DNA of 64,000 bases from Affinundibacterium seohonense (GTDB lineage Bacteria; Pseudomonadota; Gammaproteobacteria; Burkholderiales; Burkholderiaceae_D). The notes under the pieces are model-generated. The model made no database searches, was not told the DNA's origin, and saw nothing but the letters and a program-made list of their open reading frames with translations. This document shows, piece by piece, positions 6,924-40,451 of the stretch. Every line of letters starts with the position of its first letter. The stretch's first letter is position 1. The DNA is taken from assembly GCF_014284305.1 (NCBI RefSeq), contig NZ_JACOFW010000020.1:1-64000 (forward strand), given 5' to 3'. A program made the position numbers and the translations under genes.

Positions 6924-9296
6924 TTAGATAATATCTTTAGATGGTGCTAGCGGTAGGGTGAAATGGAAGCTGGAGCCTTTGCCCTCGACCGATGTAAACC
7001 CGATTTTTCCATCCATCCTTTCGACCATCTCTTTGCAAATCGACAGACCTAATCCCGTGCCGCCTTTTTTGCGGGTACTGCTGCCGTCAACCTGAGAGAA
7101 TTTTTTGAACAGGCGATCTTGATGTTGCCGTGGTATGCCTTCACCTTGATCTTTGATGGTAATCCGAACTTGACTTGGCTCGCGTTCGACGACGATATGG
7201 ACAATCGTATTAGGAGAGGAAAATTTCGCAGCATTGGAGAGTAAGTTAGACATAATTTGTAGGACTCGTTGCATATCAGCGAGTATCAAATAGTCGATAT
7301 CTAGCTTAGTGAATTCAAACTTCACTTGGTATTGTTTGGCAAAGTCTAGATTGTTCTCGATACTTTGCGAAATTACCGCATTGATCGAAAGCGTTTCAAT
7401 GTGGAACTCCATTTTTCCGGCAGCCAATTTGTCCATATCGAGAATGTCGTTAATGATCAGCGCGAGTTGTTCTCCATTTTGCAGAGCGATACGAATCATT
7501 CTGGCTAAGGAATCTGGCAAGCTACCGAAAATGCCACCTTCAATGAGTTTTAACGAGCCAATAATCGAGGTCAAAGGCGTTCTCAATTCATGACTGACTA
7601 TTGAGACGAATTCACTCTGCATCATTTCTAAGCGCTTGCGCTCAGTGATGTCGCGGAATACCACGATGAGTTCTATGTCGGATTTCTGTTGAACGTGCGA
7701 AATGCTAAACTCAATATGAATCGCATTGCCGTGATAGTCGGTAATGACGCTTTCGCGTTGCAAAATATTTGTACCGGTTTCGCTATGCTCGAAGTCTTCG
7801 GTACGTATGTTTTGGATAAACCTTGCAATTTCACTGCTTAAACTAAGTGGATTGTCACCACACAATCGCGTCAGAAAATTCGTGGTGGTTAGCATTGACT
7901 CTGGAAATTTCAATATGTCTAATGCCGCGGCATTGATAGAATGAATGTCACCGTCGAAACTGGTACTGACAATTCCTTCCGCAACATTGTTGAGAATCGC
8001 TTGGGTATATTCGGCGCTGGCTTGCAGTTCTGATTCGGCGGCGACCCGTCGGCTTATGTCGATTACTTGAAAGATCCAATAGGTCTTCTCCAATTTTTCG
8101 TATTCAATCAGAGCTAGGCTCAATAGGCATACAACTTTCCTGCCATCTCGATGGCGCAGTCCTAACTCAAACTGTAGGCAACTTTCGCCACGTTGTTCCC
8201 ATTGATTTAACAACAGAGGCATGGCTAATTGATCCGATAATGTGCTCAGTGGCTGTTGTAAAAGTTCAAACTCTTCATAACCTAAAATGCTACACAGCAT
8301 AGGATTTGCACTGATCCATTGACCATCTTCAGCAACTAAAGCCATGCCTTGTGGCGCCGTATTGAAGGCACTCATAAAACGCTGTTGACTTTCATTGAGA
8401 GCGAAGTAGGCACGAGTCTGTCGACGGTAAGATTGGAATGTTCTGGCAATCAAAAATCCCAACAGAAATGCGATAGACCAGCCAGCAAGACGTTGAACGA
8501 GTGTGTAGAAATTAAATTCGTCAGGTTTGTTTGAAATGGTCAACAGTTGAATATCTCGACCCGAAATATTCACTTTTAACTGATTGGCATGGTGTCGGTC
8601 TATTTCAAGATTACCGTAAATTGGCTTCGTATGTTTTGCTTGCTCAAGATCGACAATAGCAAAGTCTAACTGTAATTCCTTGGCTCTTTGCGAGGCTTGG
8701 GCAAACACCTGATCGGCATTGAGTATGGTACTAACGAGCCCCCAGTAAGAGCCATTGTTGAGAAAAACTGGTACACGATACGCCAAGCCTAGTCCACCTT
8801 GCTTAAGTTCGAAAGGGCCGGCTAACGCAGCGTTTTGACTGCGAATGATCTTTTCAATTGCTGGCCATTGCTGTGGATTGTCCGGATAGTAAATTCCTAG
8901 TGCGGACTCGTTACCTTCACTCGGCACAATCGTTTGAATCCGATTGCCTGGAGCGATACTGATATTGCGTATGCTTGCTTCATTTGATTGCAGATCCGTT
9001 AGCCATGGTTCCATATCCTTGACTCGATATTCGCCATTCTTTGTCTTAATAAAAGAAACCAGCCCCGATGCTAAATGAATGGTGGCATTAAGTTCTGATT
9101 CAATCATGGCGCGGATTTCGCCAGCGTTACTGATGATTTTTTGTCGGGCGATACTGTCCTGACGGCTGCGTTCTTCAAATAAGATAAGTTCCGTGGCAAA
9201 ACCTGTCCCAATAAACACAATCGCTGGCAGCAAGCGACCCAACAGCCGACGCCCGGGCGATTCATGCTCTAAGAAACGAAGTGAAGGCAAGTTCAT
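6924..9296 (-). CDS. Membrane sensor histidine kinase, CHASE-PAS-PAS-HisKA-HATPase
   Basis: 790 residues. A membrane segment at about 20-40 is followed by an extracytoplasmic CHASE domain (about 75-245, with the family's GPFELKQGGLGLAYRVPV region). A second membrane segment (about 270-290) leads to two PAS domains (about 305-420 and 430-550). The HisKA box SHELRTPLTSIIGSLK holds the phospho-accepting His near 565. The catalytic domain shows the N box (NLLSNAAKFS), G1 (DQGEGIP) and G2 (GGTGLGLSICKEM). There is no receiver domain and no response regulator gene beside it, so it is an orphan kinase. Ligand and partner are unknown; CHASE domains usually bind small molecules outside the membrane. 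Confidence 0.93.
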   Translation of the reverse strand: MNLPSLRFLEHESPGRRLLGRLLPAIVFIGTGFATELILFEERSRQDSIARQKIISNAGEIRAMIESELNATIHLASGLVSFIKTKNGEYRVKDMEPWLTDLQSNEASIRNISIAPGNRIQTIVPSEGNESALGIYYPDNPQQWPAIEKIIRSQNAALAGPFELKQGGLGLAYRVPVFLNNGSYWGLVSTILNADQVFAQASQRAKELQLDFAIVDLEQAKHTKPIYGNLEIDRHHANQLKVNISGRDIQLLTISNKPDEFNFYTLVQRLAGWSIAFLLGFLIARTFQSYRRQTRAYFALNESQQRFMSAFNTAPQGMALVAEDGQWISANPMLCSILGYEEFELLQQPLSTLSDQLAMPLLLNQWEQRGESCLQFELGLRHRDGRKVVCLLSLALIEYEKLEKTYWIFQVIDISRRVAAESELQASAEYTQAILNNVAEGIVSTSFDGDIHSINAAALDILKFPESMLTTTNFLTRLCGDNPLSLSSEIARFIQNIRTEDFEHSETGTNILQRESVITDYHGNAIHIEFSISHVQQKSDIELIVVFRDITERKRLEMMQSEFVSIVSHELRTPLTSIIGSLKLIEGGIFGSLPDSLARMIRIALQNGEQLALIINDILDMDKLAAGKMEFHIETLSINAVISQSIENNLDFAKQYQVKFEFTKLDIDYLILADMQRVLQIMSNLLSNAAKFSSPNTIVHIVVEREPSQVRITIKDQGEGIPRQHQDRLFKKFSQVDGSSTRKKGGTGLGLSICKEMVERMDGKIGFTSVEGKGSSFHFTLPLAPSKDII

Positions 9297-34177: not shown

Positions 34178-34504
34178 TTAGCGAGCGTTGCCGTTTGAAA
34201 GCGGGGCTAAGTGAGAAGGTTTTTCGTCCACTAATGTTTGTACATGCTTGACCAAATCAACGGGTCTAAAGAGGCGAGTAGTTCGTGCTGGATAGTGTGC
34301 TAAGTCATTATCGTTTCTGCCCATTGATGGCGGGCGTATCGGTCTGGGCTTGAAATTGCCACCACAATTCGGACAGACGCCCTGTAACTTGTGATTGACA
34401 CAATCGAGACAGAAAGTACATTCGAAAGAACAAATCATGGCATCCTGCGCATGGGGCGGCAGATCCTTATCGCAATGTTCGCAGTTTGGTCGCAGTTCTA
34501 GCAT
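34178..34504 (-). CDS. DUF1272 zinc-ribbon-like protein
   Basis: 108 residues. The first 60 are the DUF1272 domain: MLELRPNCEHCDKDLPP, then MICSFECTFCLDCV and VCPNCGG, with eight Cys spaced as in a zinc-binding domain. The C-terminal half is Arg/Pro-rich and less ordered. Function unknown; the family is often found near regulators and metabolic enzymes. The start is set at ATG 34504, which has GGAG eight bases upstream; the longer reading is unsupported. It heads the operon with the GlxA-type and isochorismatase-like genes. Confidence 0.82.
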   Translation of the reverse strand: MLELRPNCEHCDKDLPPHAQDAMICSFECTFCLDCVNHKLQGVCPNCGGNFKPRPIRPPSMGRNDNDLAHYPARTTRLFRPVDLVKHVQTLVDEKPSHLAPLSNGNAR

Positions 34505-34546
34505 GGTTGGCTCCGAAATCTGAAAAGATAATGTGGAGCAGCTTAC

Positions 34547-34572
34547 CATGCTGAAAAAACTTGTACAGCATG
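34547..34572 (-). promoter_or_regulatory. Inverted repeat, candidate operator of the GlxA operon
   Basis: CATGCTG (34547-34553) is matched by CAGCATG (34566-34572), a perfect 7-bp inverted repeat with a 12-base spacer. It lies 43 bases upstream of the DUF1272 start. The size fits a dimeric regulator site; the GlxA-type regulator two genes on is the natural candidate. Confidence 0.4.
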
Positions 34573-34596
34573 AAAAATGACAGCTTGCGGTCAATT

Positions 34597-34664: not shown

Positions 34665-36473
34665 TCAGGTATGATTTCCGCTGATTTGTGCGGACATAAG
34701 TTGGCAATAAAGTCCGTTGCTATCTTTGATTAAATCTTGGTGTTGACCTTGTTGGACGATATGGCCTTGCTCCAAGACGAACACGGTATCGACTTTTTTG
34801 ATGGTGGAGTAGCGATGCGCGATGATAATCGTGGTTCGTTCTTTCATTAACTCATCTAAAGCGGCTTGCACCAAGGCTTCGCTTGCAGAATCGAGAGCAC
34901 TGGTAGCTTCATCCAAAATTAGGATTTTTGGGTTCCGCAAAATCGCTCGGGCAATGGCAATTCTTTGCTTTTGTCCGCCCGACAATTGCACGCCACGATC
35001 GCCAACAACTGTGTCATAGCCATTTGGGAAGCCTGAAATAAAATGATGCGCGTTGGCTTTGGTAGCGGCTTGTATGACTTCTTCTAGTGCGACTTCTCGA
35101 TCGGCGATGGCGAAGGCAATATTCTCGTAAATACTACCGGAAAAAAGTGCAGGTTCTTGTTCGACGATGGCAATGTGATCGCGAATCGCGTTAATGTTGG
35201 AATCGTTTGAGAGGAAGTTGTCGAAGTAAATTTGCCCTTGATTGACCGGGTATAAACCGAGCAGCAGACTAGCAATACTGGATTTTCCTGCACCTGATGC
35301 GCCGATTAAAGCAATTTTTTCGCCTGGCTGAATTTCAAAATTGAGCGCAGTTAAGGCCGCGGTGTCGGGGCGTTCCGGGTAGGCGAAGTGGACATTGTTG
35401 AATTGAATTTTTCCTTGCAGATGAAAAGAATTTTTGGTGGATACACCGTCATTTGGGATCGCATCAGAGTTTTTCTTTAATGCAGCTTGTTTAGCATCAT
35501 CAGCACCAAGAATCTCAAACACGCGTTCGGTGGCACCGAGTGTCCGCATCCAGTCGCTCCAGAAATCGCTGATAGCGCTAGAAGAACCACTCGCCATACC
35601 AGCATAAATGATAAAACTAGTGAACTCGCCCACAGTTAGCTTTCCTTGACTAATGAGATCCGCTGCCAAAAAAAAGGTGATGATGAGTGCTAGGTAAAGC
35701 ACGATGGAAGAGAGGCCACGGTAGCTTGCTAACAAACGAATATTGCGCAAGATAACCTGCAAGGCTTGGTCGGCAGTATCTGCATATTTATCGTTTGCCA
35801 GCTTGTTTTGATTGAAGGCGTGGATCAGCCTTATATTGCTAAAGTATTCCTGCGCGACGCTATTGCTGGCCGCTTTTTTTTCTTGAATGTGGTGTGCGCT
35901 GGTTTTGAGTGAGTTACCTATCCAGTCTGTCATCCATAGGCTGAGTGGAATGTAGATCAATAAGATCAGACTCAGTGTAGGTGAAATGCTGATCAGCATA
36001 ACGGTACACCCGATAAATACCAAACTTGAGCGTAAAGATATCGCCAATCCCATGGTTAAAGTGTCGTGCAAGGCTTCAACATCAGAAGCTAGTCGATTGG
36101 TTAGTTCGCCAACCCTGTGTTTATCAAAGAAGGCGATGTCTTGACGTATTAGGGCTGAAAATAGGGTTTGCCGTATTGTCGTGACGATCATATCGCCAGT
36201 AGATTCGAAAATGTAATACCGTAAAGTTGTTGCAAGTGCTTGTATCACCAAGACTATCGCTGCGATACCGGCGAAATTTTTGATCCAGCTACTATCAATT
36301 TTTGCGCTATTCAAATGATCGATGAAATAGGCCAAGGCTTTAGGATAGGCAAGTTCGATCACGATAGTGATACACATAACCGCTATGCCTAATAAAAGGC
36401 GGGTACGAAATGGTTTGAGAACTGACAGTCTTTGTAGGTGCTGATTAATTGGCTTGGTTTGCTTAGGATTCAT
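34665..36473 (-). CDS. ABC exporter, fused permease/ATPase (RiPP cluster)
   Basis: 602 residues. Six membrane helices form the N-terminal ABC type 1 domain (about 25-310). The ATPase domain (about 365-600) has Walker A GASGAGKSS, signature LSGGQKQRIAIARAIL, Walker B ILILDEATSALD and the switch His in IIAHRYST. This is the half-size, dimeric MsbA/peptide-exporter type. There is no N-terminal C39 peptidase domain, so it cannot cut a leader peptide itself. It overlaps the thioredoxin-like gene by 11 bases and ends the precursor/ATP-grasp operon, so it most likely exports the matured peptide. Confidence 0.9.
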   Translation of the reverse strand: MNPKQTKPINQHLQRLSVLKPFRTRLLLGIAVMCITIVIELAYPKALAYFIDHLNSAKIDSSWIKNFAGIAAIVLVIQALATTLRYYIFESTGDMIVTTIRQTLFSALIRQDIAFFDKHRVGELTNRLASDVEALHDTLTMGLAISLRSSLVFIGCTVMLISISPTLSLILLIYIPLSLWMTDWIGNSLKTSAHHIQEKKAASNSVAQEYFSNIRLIHAFNQNKLANDKYADTADQALQVILRNIRLLASYRGLSSIVLYLALIITFFLAADLISQGKLTVGEFTSFIIYAGMASGSSSAISDFWSDWMRTLGATERVFEILGADDAKQAALKKNSDAIPNDGVSTKNSFHLQGKIQFNNVHFAYPERPDTAALTALNFEIQPGEKIALIGASGAGKSSIASLLLGLYPVNQGQIYFDNFLSNDSNINAIRDHIAIVEQEPALFSGSIYENIAFAIADREVALEEVIQAATKANAHHFISGFPNGYDTVVGDRGVQLSGGQKQRIAIARAILRNPKILILDEATSALDSASEALVQAALDELMKERTTIIIAHRYSTIKKVDTVFVLEQGHIVQQGQHQDLIKDSNGLYCQLMSAQISGNHT

Positions 36474-37029
36474 GCGAGTCTACTGAGTCAAGTTCTTCGA
36501 TTTGCGTAAGGAATGCGCACCAGTTGTCATCGCCTATCATGCCCTCGGCTTGTAATAATCGCGCGTGGTCTATGAAAAGATAATACGGTGACATGAGCTT
36601 GCTATTGATTTCACGGTAGTTTTCCTCTTTGAGAAAAACCGCGAAAGACGCTAATGTTGTGTTGCGCAAAAAACGCCGGACTCGCCATTGCGGCTCATTG
36701 CTGACCAACCATAATCGAACTCCCGCTTGTTCGGCACGCATGGCGATTTTTTCAATCTCTGGGAGTTTTTCTTTGCACTTGGGGCATTTTGTCGACAAGA
36801 ATAACAAGACGATTGCATACTCTGGCAGTAGTAAATCCTGTTCCTGTTTGCTTAGCAAAGTTCGTGCAGTAATTTGGGGGATTTCCGTGCCAGGAGGAAT
36901 TGGCAATAAATTCTTAGTGCTCTCAGAAATTTGCTTGATCTTTCTTAGTAATTTTAAGCTCAAGCTTAAGTTCAAAAAAGTACACAAGGTCAGCGTCAGT
37001 AAACTGAAGTAAATAAGATTTTGATTCAT
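36463..37029 (-). CDS. MauD-like membrane-anchored thioredoxin-fold protein (RiPP cluster)
   Basis: 188 residues. One N-terminal membrane helix (about 5-25) anchors a thioredoxin-like domain facing the periplasm. The redox motif is Cys82-Pro-Lys-Cys85 in FLSTKCPKCKEKLPE, in the position of the CPxC of MauD/TlpA-type proteins, after a PPGTEIPQ stretch like that of MauD. In methylamine dehydrogenase maturation MauD and MauE act together in disulfide formation; here the gene directly follows a MauE-type gene (one base between stop and ATG). It probably makes or isomerises a disulfide in the exported peptide. The start is set at MNQNL, 37029. Confidence 0.82.
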   Translation of the reverse strand: MNQNLIYFSLLTLTLCTFLNLSLSLKLLRKIKQISESTKNLLPIPPGTEIPQITARTLLSKQEQDLLLPEYAIVLLFLSTKCPKCKEKLPEIEKIAMRAEQAGVRLWLVSNEPQWRVRRFLRNTTLASFAVFLKEENYREINSKLMSPYYLFIDHARLLQAEGMIGDDNWCAFLTQIEELDSVDSHES

Positions 37030-37030
37030 G

Positions 37031-37582
37031 TTAGTAATCTTTGTCGCTGAAAATGGTGCTGAAAAATTCATGAAAATGCATCATCAACAAGCACAGTGTC
37101 AGAGCGATGCCAAATTGTAGCCAATAGATAATCGCTGGCGCTTGCATGTGGGTATTGATTTCGACATGATGATTGGCATAGGTGGCATAGATGGTAGCGC
37201 TAAGCAGCAAGAAATTTCGCATTAGGTCATAAGCAGATACTGGCCTTTCTGCCTCACCAAAGCAATTGCAACGGACTAAATCCTTAGAGAAAAATTGATA
37301 TGCAACTACGAGGCTGAAAATCAAAAAAAGTATGCTGGCAACAAATAAAGTAAGTTGCAAGATCCGGCTGGAGTTAGAGGAGAAAAGTGCGATGGCAATT
37401 AGTAGTTCTGTGCCTATTAGTATGGGCACGATAAGCTTGCTCAAGTTTGGTGAAATGCCAAACGACTGCGTCAAGTTGTTTTGAAAACTAGTAAAGCTGC
37501 GTAGTTTTCCGACTGCAGCAAAAAAGAAAATGCAGGCTAGGCCAAGCACAATAACGGGCACAATCGTATCTTGCATCGTCAT
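37031..37582 (-). CDS. MauE/DoxX-type redox-associated membrane protein (RiPP cluster)
   Basis: 183 residues and four to five membrane helices. The signature CNCFG (Cys105, Cys107 in VRCNCFGEAERPVS), followed by a polar loop and RNFLLL, is that of MauE-family membrane proteins, which pass electrons or disulfides across the membrane for a partner thioredoxin. It lies between the Clp-fold protease gene and the MauD-like gene. The start at ATG 37582 is preferred; a TTG at 37669 would extend into the protease gene with a polar, non-membrane stretch. The MauE/MauD pair without methylamine dehydrogenase genes shows that the pair was recruited for another disulfide substrate. Confidence 0.82.
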   Translation of the reverse strand: MTMQDTIVPVIVLGLACIFFFAAVGKLRSFTSFQNNLTQSFGISPNLSKLIVPILIGTELLIAIALFSSNSSRILQLTLFVASILFLIFSLVVAYQFFSKDLVRCNCFGEAERPVSAYDLMRNFLLLSATIYATYANHHVEINTHMQAPAIIYWLQFGIALTLCLLMMHFHEFFSTIFSDKDY

Positions 37583-37641: not shown

Positions 37642-38541
37642 CTACTTGTCCGTGGAGCTGGTTGTCCAATGTGGCGCCAAGCCATCAATACGGTGTGTTC
37701 TACTTCGAATTTTTCCTGCACTCGCAATCACGGCATTTATCCACGGAGTTTCCAAACTATCTCGCTGCGCGCCGCCGACATGGGCTTGCAATATTGTTGA
37801 AAGTTCCCAAGCGGCATCTTCCACTATTTGATTCTTTGCGATTCGCAAACCTAATGCACTTAACTCCTCACCTGTGATGGCATAGCTGTGTGAGTGATAA
37901 GCGCTGACCAAGTGTTGAACGATTTTTTCGCGTTGTTCTATGGAATTCGACCTCAATTGAAAGGCCAATAGTTCTAAAGCAATTTGCTGCAATTCTTTAG
38001 TACAACGATAGAAAGCTGCTAAGGATGGCGGAATTATGCTGTTGCAGAGCAATGCTAGAGATTCAGTGCGCGCTTCGTTTGCCTCAATTCCAAACCAGTT
38101 TTCAGCCATTTCGCCAAATGCCAAGATATCCATCGCGGAAAAGCTACTACTCATGGTGCCATCGGCATCAGAGCCACCTTGTAAATGGGGGTCGATGGGA
38201 GAGAACATCGCTAGCTCGCCTGCAATGATTTGATCGGCGGCCAAACATAACAAGGTGCCAGATGATTGGCAGAAGTAAGGGACGATAATGTTAAATTCTT
38301 CGGCGAACGCGCGGAACAATAAGGCAATACGCCGTGTCGCGTTGACCACGCCACCGCGGCAGTGTAAGACCAGATCGAGGCGTTTAACTTTGCCTAATTC
38401 TCTTAATTGTTCATAGAGTGGGGGAAGCAGGTCTATATCTAGGTTGGACGCCGCCAATACGATCACTTTACTCTCACGCAGATGTTCTATTTGTAGAATG
38501 CTTTCGCGCATTGCTGAGTGACTTAATTGCTGCATGTGCAT
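37642..38541 (-). CDS. SDH family Clp-fold serine proteinase (RiPP cluster)
   Basis: 299 residues of the ClpP/SppA superfamily, serine dehydrogenase proteinase (SDH) branch. Visible motifs are VLHCRGGVVNATRRIALLFR, the nucleophile region CQSSGTLLCLAADQI with Ser93 aligned to the Ser of the usual KSAGT, and MFSPIDPHL. It has no signal peptide and one weakly hydrophobic stretch, so it may be cytoplasmic or membrane-associated. It starts inside the end of the ATP-grasp gene (19-base overlap), which ties it to peptide maturation. Since the exporter lacks a C39 domain, this protein is the best candidate for leader removal; that is inference. Confidence 0.82.
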   Translation of the reverse strand: MHMQQLSHSAMRESILQIEHLRESKVIVLAASNLDIDLLPPLYEQLRELGKVKRLDLVLHCRGGVVNATRRIALLFRAFAEEFNIIVPYFCQSSGTLLCLAADQIIAGELAMFSPIDPHLQGGSDADGTMSSSFSAMDILAFGEMAENWFGIEANEARTESLALLCNSIIPPSLAAFYRCTKELQQIALELLAFQLRSNSIEQREKIVQHLVSAYHSHSYAITGEELSALGLRIAKNQIVEDAAWELSTILQAHVGGAQRDSLETPWINAVIASAGKIRSRTHRIDGLAPHWTTSSTDK

Positions 38542-39530
38542 TCCTTGATGAGTAAATTGGCGACAGTATCAAGTAATTTGAATTCAGGTATCAATTGCTC
38601 GATATACAGAAATTGTCCGGCTGGATTGTTTTCAAGAAAAACGTATTCATTCTCGGGCGTCACGATTAAATCCAGCGCGCTAAAATTAAGCCCATAGCTG
38701 CTGACGAAATCGCGGCATTGTTGTTCGATGTTAGCCGGAAGTTGAGTTGCTTCGTAAGGAATTTCCGCGCTCATGTCTCGAGAATCAATCATCGTTCTAT
38801 CATCGGCTTGCGAATGTATCTTAGCAGCGAAAATATGCTCACCGATCAGTGTGACACGTAGCTCATATTGTTTGTGAATGTATTTTTGAAAGTGGCAGGG
38901 GAGTTCACTGACTGCATCAATATTCTCCATTAAATCTTCACTGACCAAGGTGGTCGTGATGCCGTGCGTACGTCTTTCTGTGAATTCAACTTGATCCGCT
39001 GCGAGAGAAGCGGATGACATTGATTTGAAAATGATAGAAGCTTGCTGCTTTTGATAAAAATCGCGTATATGTTGAGGCTGATTGGAAATGATCGAATTTG
39101 GAATTTGAAAACCAAAGCGCAGCGCTCTTTGCAGTTGTTCACCTTTCCACATAGCGCCGCGCATGATGAGCGGGTGACCGATCCAAAAACAATTTAAACC
39201 AAGTAAGAGACCAAACAAAGTCTGTTCTGCTTCTAGCTTGGCATAAGTTTTTTCCTGCACGCCCAAGTCTTCGGATCGAAAGCTAAATTCACCAGGCTTT
39301 CTGGCCCATATCGAGGCGATTTCGTGTAGTTGTATGCTTGAGCCCGATAGAAGGTGTTTGATTTCGCCTTCATTTCCGTGGCTGTTGAAGCTTTGAGTGA
39401 GCTGATAATCGCGTGGAAAACAATCTAGATTGAGTCGAAATGCGGTGTGTCCTTTGTGTTGGAGAATCTCTGCAACTAGGTCTACATGTAAGTCAGTGCT
39501 ATTGCTGATAATGAGAATTTTTTTTGTCAT
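38523..39530 (-). CDS. ATP-grasp peptide ligase, MvdD/graspetide type (RiPP maturase)
   Basis: 335 residues. The N-terminal part (KILIISNSTDLHVDLVAEIL, then FPRDYQ) and the ATP-grasp fold with YELRVTLIGEHIFAAKIHSQ and LIVTPENEYVFLENNPAGQ match the MvdC/MvdD family that joins side chains of Asp/Glu to Ser, Thr or Lys in microviridin-type graspetides. The metal-binding Asp, Glu and Asn of the last motif (D-V...E-N-N) are present. It is the first enzyme gene after the precursor-like peptide gene, separated by 276 bases that hold a stem-loop, and it overlaps the protease gene. It should act in the cytoplasm on the precursor. The tail ECTCSN holds two Cys of unknown role. Confidence 0.85.
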   Translation of the reverse strand: MTKKILIISNSTDLHVDLVAEILQHKGHTAFRLNLDCFPRDYQLTQSFNSHGNEGEIKHLLSGSSIQLHEIASIWARKPGEFSFRSEDLGVQEKTYAKLEAEQTLFGLLLGLNCFWIGHPLIMRGAMWKGEQLQRALRFGFQIPNSIISNQPQHIRDFYQKQQASIIFKSMSSASLAADQVEFTERRTHGITTTLVSEDLMENIDAVSELPCHFQKYIHKQYELRVTLIGEHIFAAKIHSQADDRTMIDSRDMSAEIPYEATQLPANIEQQCRDFVSSYGLNFSALDLIVTPENEYVFLENNPAGQFLYIEQLIPEFKLLDTVANLLIKECTCSN

Positions 39531-39665: not shown

Positions 39666-39697
39666 TGGCTGAATTTAGCGCGTGATAAATTCAGCCA
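39666..39697 (-). terminator. Stem-loop between precursor and ATP-grasp genes
   Basis: TGGCTGAATTTA (39666-39677) pairs perfectly with TAAATTCAGCCA (39686-39697) over an eight-base loop. No T-tract follows on the minus strand, so full termination is unlikely. Its place fits partial termination or mRNA stabilisation, giving more precursor than enzyme transcript, as is common in peptide operons. Confidence 0.6.
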
Positions 39698-39806: not shown

Positions 39807-39989
39807 TTAGCACCAGATGCCGTCGTCTTTACGACCATTCCACAATCTTGGTGCACGAGCGTCTGGGCCTGAGCAGCCAGCAATCGCTACGCCATCACGA
39901 ACTTTCCATTGTGGTGTGATTTGTGTTTTTTCTGCTTTTTTTTCTGCTAATTTAAAGGCGAATAGTTTGCTAGTATTTTGATTCTTCAT
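39807..39989 (-). CDS. Putative ATP-grasp-modified RiPP precursor peptide
   Basis: 60 residues, small and charged. The N-terminal half (MKNQNTSKLFAFKLAEKKAE) looks like a helical leader; the C-terminal half (about 39-60) is Gly/Asp-rich, begins GCSGPD and ends KDDGIWC. Cys39 and Cys60 bracket a 22-residue segment with Asp43, Asp55, Asp56, Ser40 and Lys54, which are residues that ATP-grasp ligases can cross-link. AGAAGG lies eight bases before the ATG, and a consensus promoter lies about 70 bases upstream. No signal peptide. Read with the ATP-grasp, protease, redox pair and exporter genes downstream, it is the likely substrate. I recognise no described precursor family. Confidence 0.78.
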   Translation of the reverse strand: MKNQNTSKLFAFKLAEKKAEKTQITPQWKVRDGVAIAGCSGPDARAPRLWNGRKDDGIWC

Positions 39990-40059
39990 TTTGTAACCTT
40001 CTAAAAATAGTTTGGTTGAAATTAAAGATTTTTCCACAACTGGATGATGTGGAGTAAGC

Positions 40060-40088
40060 AAGATAGCATTGCAAAAATACTGTGTCAA
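40060..40088 (-). promoter_or_regulatory. Sigma70 promoter of the RiPP operon
   Basis: On the minus strand TTGACA (40088-40083) and TATCTT (40065-40060) are separated by exactly 17 bases. Transcription should start near 40053, giving a leader of about 64 bases before the precursor ATG. This is the best promoter in the window. Confidence 0.8.
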
Positions 40089-40451
40089 TTTTAAAAGTTC
40101 AAAAGAAAAGAAAAAGACAAAAAATTTTATTAATTTACTTTTTTGTGTTTTTATTTGTCTTTTTTTGTGAGTGAACTTGGGCCTCAATTTTTTCATCGTT
40201 CACTTGTTAACCATGTTCATAAAGTTGATGGGCCTGAAGATACGAAGTTTGTGGTGCCATAAAGTGTAGTGAGTTGGCCACGTCAATGTAGTTGGATTTC
40301 TGCTGCTCCACCATTACGGGTGTTATTAGTGTTATCAAAATACCCCTCCGTGGTCTAAGGCTTTGGCGAGCAAAGCATAGATTAGCTCGGTAATGAGGTA
40401 GTCTATCGACTGTTCGCGCAAGTTTCTTCGATCAATTTAAGGGAATGCCAT
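40089..40451. other. AT-rich control region between RiPP operon and tatD gene
   Basis: Directly upstream of the RiPP promoter lies an A/T-rich stretch (40090-40170). It contains an 11-bp perfect inverted repeat, AAAAAGACAAA (40111-40121) and TTTGTCTTTTT (40154-40164), with a 32-base spacer. It could be an UP element, a nucleoid-protein site or an operator. The rest (40200-40451) shows no gene; AGGGA before 40452 is the tatD ribosome binding site. Confidence 0.5.

Follow-up and report, generated by a model that had tools for sequence, protein, structure and literature searches.

The window (the whole stretch of 64,000 nucleotides analysed here) carries on its minus strand a gene cassette that begins with a CDS for a 60 aa peptide (nt 39807–39989; ATG at 39989, stop codon at 39809–39807), MKNQNTSKLFAFKLAEKKAEKTQITPQWKVRDGVAIAGCSGPDARAPRLWNGRKDDGIWC, as delimited by ORF reading, alignment and a leader-profile search. 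An earlier note on this DNA had picked out this minus-strand ORF of 60 aa as a precursor, and comparison with other genomes confirms that it is a real gene. A frame of 129 aa starting at 40196, present in a mechanical list of ORFs, was set aside because a Met matching 39989 is the start in nearly all homologues. Reading of the sequence places an RBS-like AGAAGG (nt 39997–40002, minus strand) 7 nt 5' of the ATG. A promoter scan returned a sigma-70-like candidate (TTGACA-17-TATCTT, its second hexamer preceded by TG; nt 40060–40088, minus strand) about 70 bases 5' of the start codon, a lead only, as the region has nine such sites against a shuffle mean of 11.3; promoter and terminator scans of the region gave no more sites than in shuffles. 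The 276 nt between the precursor and the next gene include a perfect 12-bp inverted repeat with an 8-nt loop (nt 39666–39697, inverted-repeat search), which the terminator scan did not report as terminator-like. It may be a hairpin that takes part in mRNA processing or stability, and may set the ratio of precursor to enzyme in the mRNA. The cassette continues on the minus strand with an MvdD-like ATP-grasp graspetide synthetase of 335 aa (nt 38523–39530), a ClpP-fold SDH-type serine proteinase of 299 aa (nt 37642–38541) whose gene overlaps that of the ligase by 19 bases, a MauE-family membrane protein of 183 aa (nt 37031–37582, ATG at 37582), a thioredoxin-fold protein of 188 aa (nt 36463–37029, ATG at 37029) and an ABC exporter with membrane and ATPase domains (nt 34665–36473, Pfam/NCBIfam). 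A DUF1272 protein with several Cys (nt 34178–34594) adjoins the ABC gene; tblastn of the other loci returned no homologue of it.

A ligase scan of genome contigs gave 28 loci, 15 of which (L015–L029, in Duganella, Rugamonas, Massilia, Pseudoduganella, Rheinheimera, Luteimonas and Pseudoalteromonas) have precursor, ligase, SDH and ABC genes, with MauE and thioredoxin genes also present in 13 of the 15. The 13 more distant ATP-grasp loci (L030–L042), some of them on short contigs, showed no homologue of the precursor, SDH, MauE or thioredoxin at E 1e-3 and were left out of the family counts. Searched with a profile built from 37 precursors, the window's family gave matches in 36 of 392 genomes, the window's own included, and the class in one of 369, again the window's own, with at most 17 candidates scored per genome, so that misses are possible. 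One search matched eight genomes, and six of these, with E values of 0.0495 to 0.083, were discarded as chance. The 36 genomes of the family-wide profile scan and five from the ligase scan (L022, L023, L024, L025 and L027) give 41 genomes, the window's among them, with 45 loci and 102 precursor genes that encode 99 distinct precursors and 70 distinct cores. Ten duplicate loci were removed before this count, and their 30 precursors all recur in kept loci; within loci, members were found by a leader-only profile, and loci beyond the ligase scan were picked by a profile spanning the full length, core included, so that relatives with a different core may have been missed. The hosts are Oxalobacteraceae, Rheinheimera, Luteimonas and Pseudoalteromonas. 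A viral collection returned 23 pattern matches, none of them a relative, and plasmids yielded distant ATP-grasp genes only (82 records, all <60% identity).

The order of the cassette is constant. SDH genes occur in 45/45 loci, ATP-grasp genes in 43, and MauE and thioredoxin genes in 41 each, and an ABC exporter homologue was found in every locus of the tblastn comparison. The earlier note had proposed looking for homologues 5' of MvdD-like ATP-grasp genes, and this is where the precursor lies, on the ligase strand, in 43 of the 45 loci. The gap from the nearest precursor to the ligase in these 43 ranges from 54 to 276 nt (median 68), that of the window being the widest. In the remaining two (L098 and L101) SDH and ABC genes come straight after the precursor, and ATP-grasp, MauE and thioredoxin genes are absent; a large ORF of 686 aa (nt 7132–9192) adjoins the reduced locus L098. 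Tandem arrays of precursors stand 5' of one ATP-grasp gene in L018 (nine), L019 (nine), L089 (ten) and L097 (eight), and within each the ends of the peptides are constant and the loops very different. The cluster sits beside tatD and comEC homologues in the window, L015, L016, L017, L098 and L101; neither homologue was found at E 1e-20 in the other 39 loci within the stretches examined, and this neighbourhood points to one inherited site in the sub-lineage of those six. The arrays of L018, L019, L089 and L097 also supplied 29 pairs of matching members (>80% identical, with identical proteins excluded; the pairs share sequences and are not independent), which show 69/50/253 differences at codon positions one, two and three and have a median dN of 0.030 against a dS of 0.247. 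The codon-position bias and low dN are as expected if the precursor gene is translated and under purifying selection.

The leader (residues 1–38, nt 39876–39989, minus strand) contains an LFAFKLAEK-type motif and a conserved W28..R31, as defined by alignment and leader comparison, and the core (residues 39–60, nt 39810–39875, minus strand) reads C39-S40-(14 residues)-D55-x-G57-x-x-C60. Cys39, Ser40, Asp43, Lys54, Asp55, Asp56 and the C-terminal Cys60 lie in the peptide where the earlier note had placed them. In an alignment of 37 precursors that includes the window's, F10, A11, F12, A15, W28, A37, G38, C39, D55, G57 and C60 are invariant; this set, also used to train the leader profile, consists of the motif-scan sequences and two from L002 and satisfied the core pattern beforehand. 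All 70 distinct cores fit C-[ST]-x(9-19)-D-x-G-x-x-C, and each contains two Cys and no more, although the first motif scan required GC[ST] and a near-terminal Cys and is thus no test of either feature. Cores were cut at AGC, which none of the 99 sequences lacked. The residue after the first Cys is Thr in 36 cores and Ser in 34, Asp and Gly stand five and three residues before the second Cys in 70/70, the Asp is never Glu, and six cores extend by a single Ala beyond the last Cys. The invariant positions include both Cys and one Asp, as had been predicted, and neither of the results that the note had named as speaking against its reading was seen. Among the cross-linkable residues proposed at the outset, only Ser40 (Ser or Thr in 70/70) and Asp55 (70/70) are kept throughout, and Asp43, Lys54 and Asp56 fall away, with the same residue at their offsets in 23, 4 and 2 of the 70 cores; the invariant Gly57 had not been listed.

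The stretch between S/T and D is hypervariable: of seven length classes, five have a mean pairwise identity between 0.16 and 0.48, and the remaining two stand at 0.66 and 0.85. Array paralogues (nine in L018, ten in L089) share only FAF.LA, W..R, AGC and D.G..C as invariant elements. Two sets of natural variants are minimal. In one core, from Rheinheimera aquimaris, the conserved Asp is the sole acid, and in ten cores the conserved S/T is the sole S/T/K; 69 of the 70 cores have additional acids, and 60 have additional S/T/K. The microviridin core pattern is TxKxPSD with three staggered links, and PSD occurs in 0/70 distinct cores. The earlier view that the peptide belongs to no named precursor family was upheld for Pfam and NCBIfam, where the window peptide had no match and the best E value for any of the 37 precursor members was 0.039. 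FAF is present in all 94 distinct leaders, and by eye LFAFKLAEK resembles PFFARFL as well as LAEQ/LEEQ, which class I microviridins carry (motifs as given in the accessible part of PMC13039773). The usual leader helix motif that graspetide ligases recognise (Phhx(1,2)h or PFFARFL type) includes a Pro, however, and a Pro stands before FAF in just one of the 102 precursors (L027); the other 101 have L, S, T or V there, which is a point against the graspetide reading.

The ligase matches PF21068 with 57.1 bits (cut-off 27). Against NCBIfam it scores 220 bits for TIGR04187 (cut-off 350), 202 for MvdD (475) and 177 for MvdC (425), and because these scores are strong yet all below the curated cut-offs it is best regarded as a divergent member of the superfamily. 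The closest solved structures are CdnC (7mgv, E 1e-41) and 5ig9 (E 1.4e-41), together with 5ig8, also an 'ATP grasp ligase'; we take 5ig8 to be MdnB and 5ig9 to be MdnC. The microviridin and chryseoviridin systems (MdnB/C, MvdC/D, CdnC) therefore hold the nearest solved ligases. They differ from the present cassette, which has one ligase rather than an MvdC/MvdD pair, two invariant Cys in the precursor, and SDH, MauE and thioredoxin genes. In a tree reconstruction the 43 ATP-grasps of the family are split from 12 other rows by a branch of 100/98; many branches are long, and the tree gave no resolved place for the window ligase among the family members. Five of the 16 outgroup loci (L014, L038, L039, L041 and L042) had no stretch >200 residues and were not included.

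The SDH-type proteinase was recognised by PF01972 (2.5e-18, residues 45–121), which also matched 10/10 SDH members scanned, and scores 79 bits against NF047768 of NCBIfam (cut-off 250). Its profile had no match among the sequences of solved structures, and only fold comparison placed the protein: the model matches ClpP and SppA, with a best VIA-align Z of 13.3 to ClpP (8xn4, 173 residues, rmsd 3.6). Ser93, Asp117 and His218 are invariant in 45/45 members and are candidate catalytic residues, the His and the Asp being putative choices; position 119, presumably close to where the histidine of ClpP lies, holds His in 24 of the 45. The Pfam matches of the ABC exporter include no C39 peptidase domain, which makes the SDH protein, by its position and fold, the natural candidate for leader removal. 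A review of RiPP leader proteases (PMC10885120) uses no term that starts with Clp, SppA or SDH.

The remaining pair of genes specifies redox proteins. PF07291 identified the MauE-family protein and matched 12/12 MauE members scanned, and a CxCFG motif is present in 41/41. The thioredoxin-fold protein, assigned by fold model and motif, carries CPKC in the window and CxxC in 41/41; its model has an N-terminal helix (residues 3–39), a probable membrane anchor, followed by a thioredoxin fold, and Foldseek matches include thioredoxins, DsbE, ResA, TlpA and peroxiredoxins. By NCBIfam it is not MauD (TIGR02661, 19.1 bits, cut-off 188.6). MauE and thioredoxin are both absent from four loci, L015, L017, L098 and L101, the last two being also those without a ligase. 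The genomes of these four (G427, G419, G383 and G398) hold elsewhere a second locus with all genes (L109, L106, L099 and L102, respectively), so that none of the 41 genomes is without a full set. R. rivuli (L016, G405), the sister of L017 in the tree, had one match in the family-wide scan and keeps both genes. This suggests that loss of MauE and thioredoxin is tolerated only where another copy exists, with the limit that the four loci are related and do not count as independent events.

The 60-residue ORF is supported by comparative sequence data as the precursor of a graspetide-type RiPP: features of this class are present in the form of an MvdD-type ligase, a short precursor alongside, a conserved S/T donor and an Asp acceptor. 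ATP-grasp ligases of this kind join Ser/Thr/Lys to Asp/Glu, normally with the nucleophile first in the sequence (accessible text of PMC9576775 and PMC13418204). If all cores share one link, it should therefore be S/T40–Asp55, the only S/T/K-to-D/E pair that fits every core, those with a sole acid or a sole S/T/K included; such minimal natural variants predict the cross-link sharply. Interchange of Ser and Thr at 40, without interchange of Asp and Glu at 55, is in keeping with a donor that needs a hydroxyl and an acceptor that is recognised strictly, and the fuscimiditide enzyme is described as tolerating altered nucleophiles but not altered acids (PMC12291112, in part). For the two cysteines, their invariance, the CxC of MauE and the CxxC of the thioredoxin-fold protein (each motif in 41/41) together lead to the prediction of an outer disulfide.

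The chemical steps and their order that we infer from these comparisons would run as follows. The leader, through LFAFKLAEK, would bring the precursor to the ATP-grasp ligase, which would activate the side chain of Asp55 for attack by the hydroxyl of Ser/Thr40, giving a single large omega-ester ring with 9–19 residues between the linked positions (14 in the window). The SDH protease would then cut off the leader, probably after Ala37-Gly38, so that the product begins at Cys39, and the ABC exporter would carry it out of the cytoplasm. The MauE/thioredoxin pair would then oxidise Cys39 and Cys60, and the disulfide would clasp the ester ring from outside, leaving a doubly closed loop that displays the hypervariable stretch. 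We regard this scheme as a whole (a graspetide-type RiPP with an S/T40–Asp55 omega-ester and a C39–C60 disulfide, SDH leader removal and export) as reasonably likely. General Dsb enzymes could also make the disulfide, and four loci manage without a MauE and thioredoxin of their own. Any activity of the product is a guess, for example as a protease inhibitor or antibacterial peptide.

The ester could be formed as proposed while the Cys pair binds a metal or stays reduced, with MauE and the thioredoxin-fold protein keeping the thiols reduced. The folds nearest to the latter do include ResA, DsbE and TlpA, which are reductases. Cysteines of RiPP precursors are also known to bind zinc in type II pamtides (accessible part of PMC10787088). 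A Cys at each end of one ring has the look of a clasp, however, and the core otherwise keeps only S/T, D and G and offers no further conserved Cys or His as a ligand, which makes this reading unlikely. The ligase might instead use Cys39 rather than Ser/Thr40, so that a thioester to the Asp55 side chain is either the final bond or a relay intermediate on the way to Ser/Thr40. Cys39 is invariant and adjoins S/T40, and ester-making graspetide synthetases are described as forming thioesters once the nucleophile is replaced (PMC12291112, in part). A thioester as the final bond would leave the constant S/T at 40 and the invariant second Cys unexplained, thioesters are labile, and the redox partners suit a disulfide better; use of Cys39 by the ligase is thus improbable. 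A relay would account for those residues, with the ligase making an Asp55–Cys39 thioester, the acyl group moving to the hydroxyl and MauE/thioredoxin locking Cys39–Cys60. It is improbable at best, and if true would amount to a natural two-clasp scaffold with a freely varied loop, arrays supplying up to ten loops per genome.

Asp55 might be linked to another nucleophile, or some members might have two or more links per core through additional acids or hydroxyls, and extra links are possible in the cores with at least one more acid (69/70) or at least one more S/T/K (60/70). These residues stand at no conserved offset from either Cys, however, and an additional S/T/K is absent from ten cores, as is an additional acid from one; we regard this reading as improbable. 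The invariant D-x-G-x-x-C end could likewise serve enzyme recognition rather than bonding. That the ORF encodes an unmodified small regulatory or structural protein which happens to precede the cassette is very improbable: no product has been isolated and no curated family exists, but against it stand the tandem arrays, in which as many as ten divergent copies share a constant leader and constant core ends, the association with the cassette in 45 loci and the lack of a homologue at the 13 more distant ATP-grasp loci.

Among known systems, the stem-loop graspetides (fuscimiditide, OEP6-1 and amycolimiditide) likewise form a ring around a long loop by means of side-chain esters. The fuscimiditide ring runs from a leading Thr to a final Asp, and the enzyme that makes it accepts loops of widely differing length. 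Two to four cross-links are nested in these graspetides (all from the accessible part of PMC12291112), whereas a single ester with an outer Cys pair is predicted here. A further difference is that no isoaspartyl methyltransferase was matched among the genes scanned in the window cluster. Stryphnines, which are sponge knottins, also contain one side-chain ester, Ser-Glu, but they are of animal origin, use Glu instead of Asp and have a knottin fold, and no kinship is implied (PMC13418204, in part). Streptomyces decRiPPter candidates have MauE, and once also MauD, beside Cys-containing precursors, and MauE, which occurs in Cys-rich RiPP candidates, is speculated to form disulfides; those precursors carry at least eight Cys, and the accessible part of the report names no ATP-grasp ligase for these clusters (PMC7794033).

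One survey of the class counts 43 graspetide groups, several with proteases: a serine proteinase occurs in more than half of group 9, and a protease, peptidase or PCAT in groups 26, 30, 32 and 40 (accessible part of PMC13097080), so that proteases beside graspetide genes are not new in themselves. Group 9 cores were placed in cluster 2, which is tied to an actinobacterial branch, in another survey that lists Cys-containing precursors, suggests radical SAM-made thioethers for them, and considers a single ester possible for precursor clusters 281 and 1028 (PMC8939145, in part). The family described here may be among these two clusters. MauE, thioredoxin, disulfide, Clp and SDH are absent from the main text of PMC8939145, as are disulfide and thioredoxin from that of PMC13097080. 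Literature searches found no graspetide with MauE or with Massilia and none of the leader or core strings, with the limit that survey supplements may list the family; its prior listing there as an unnamed cluster is quite possible. In the accessible portions of the literature on graspetides and disulfides, no product of a graspetide synthetase closed by a conserved disulfide is described. As far as the literature consulted shows, no member of this known class has been described that combines a single predicted ester and an outer invariant Cys pair with a redox pair and an SDH protease.

If the proposed scheme is true, this would be a graspetide group whose ring is held closed by one ester together with one disulfide, and a graspetide cluster that itself encodes a redox pair and a ClpP-fold protease; for many graspetides the cognate leader protease is not identifiable in the cluster (PMC13039773, in part). 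Constant ends, a hypervariable loop and up to ten copies per locus would also make a natural display scaffold. Two ATP-grasp loci outside the family deserve mention. In a genome of the window's genus (G039, L013) a different, distant MvdD-like ATP-grasp gene adjoins an ABC gene, with no SDH, MauE or thioredoxin homologue within 3,957 bases, and is perhaps part of another graspetide cluster. In a Legionellaceae MAG (L036), a small ORF with a GG-type site (nt 488–661) lies 5' of a distant ATP-grasp gene, and is possibly the precursor of an unrelated graspetide.
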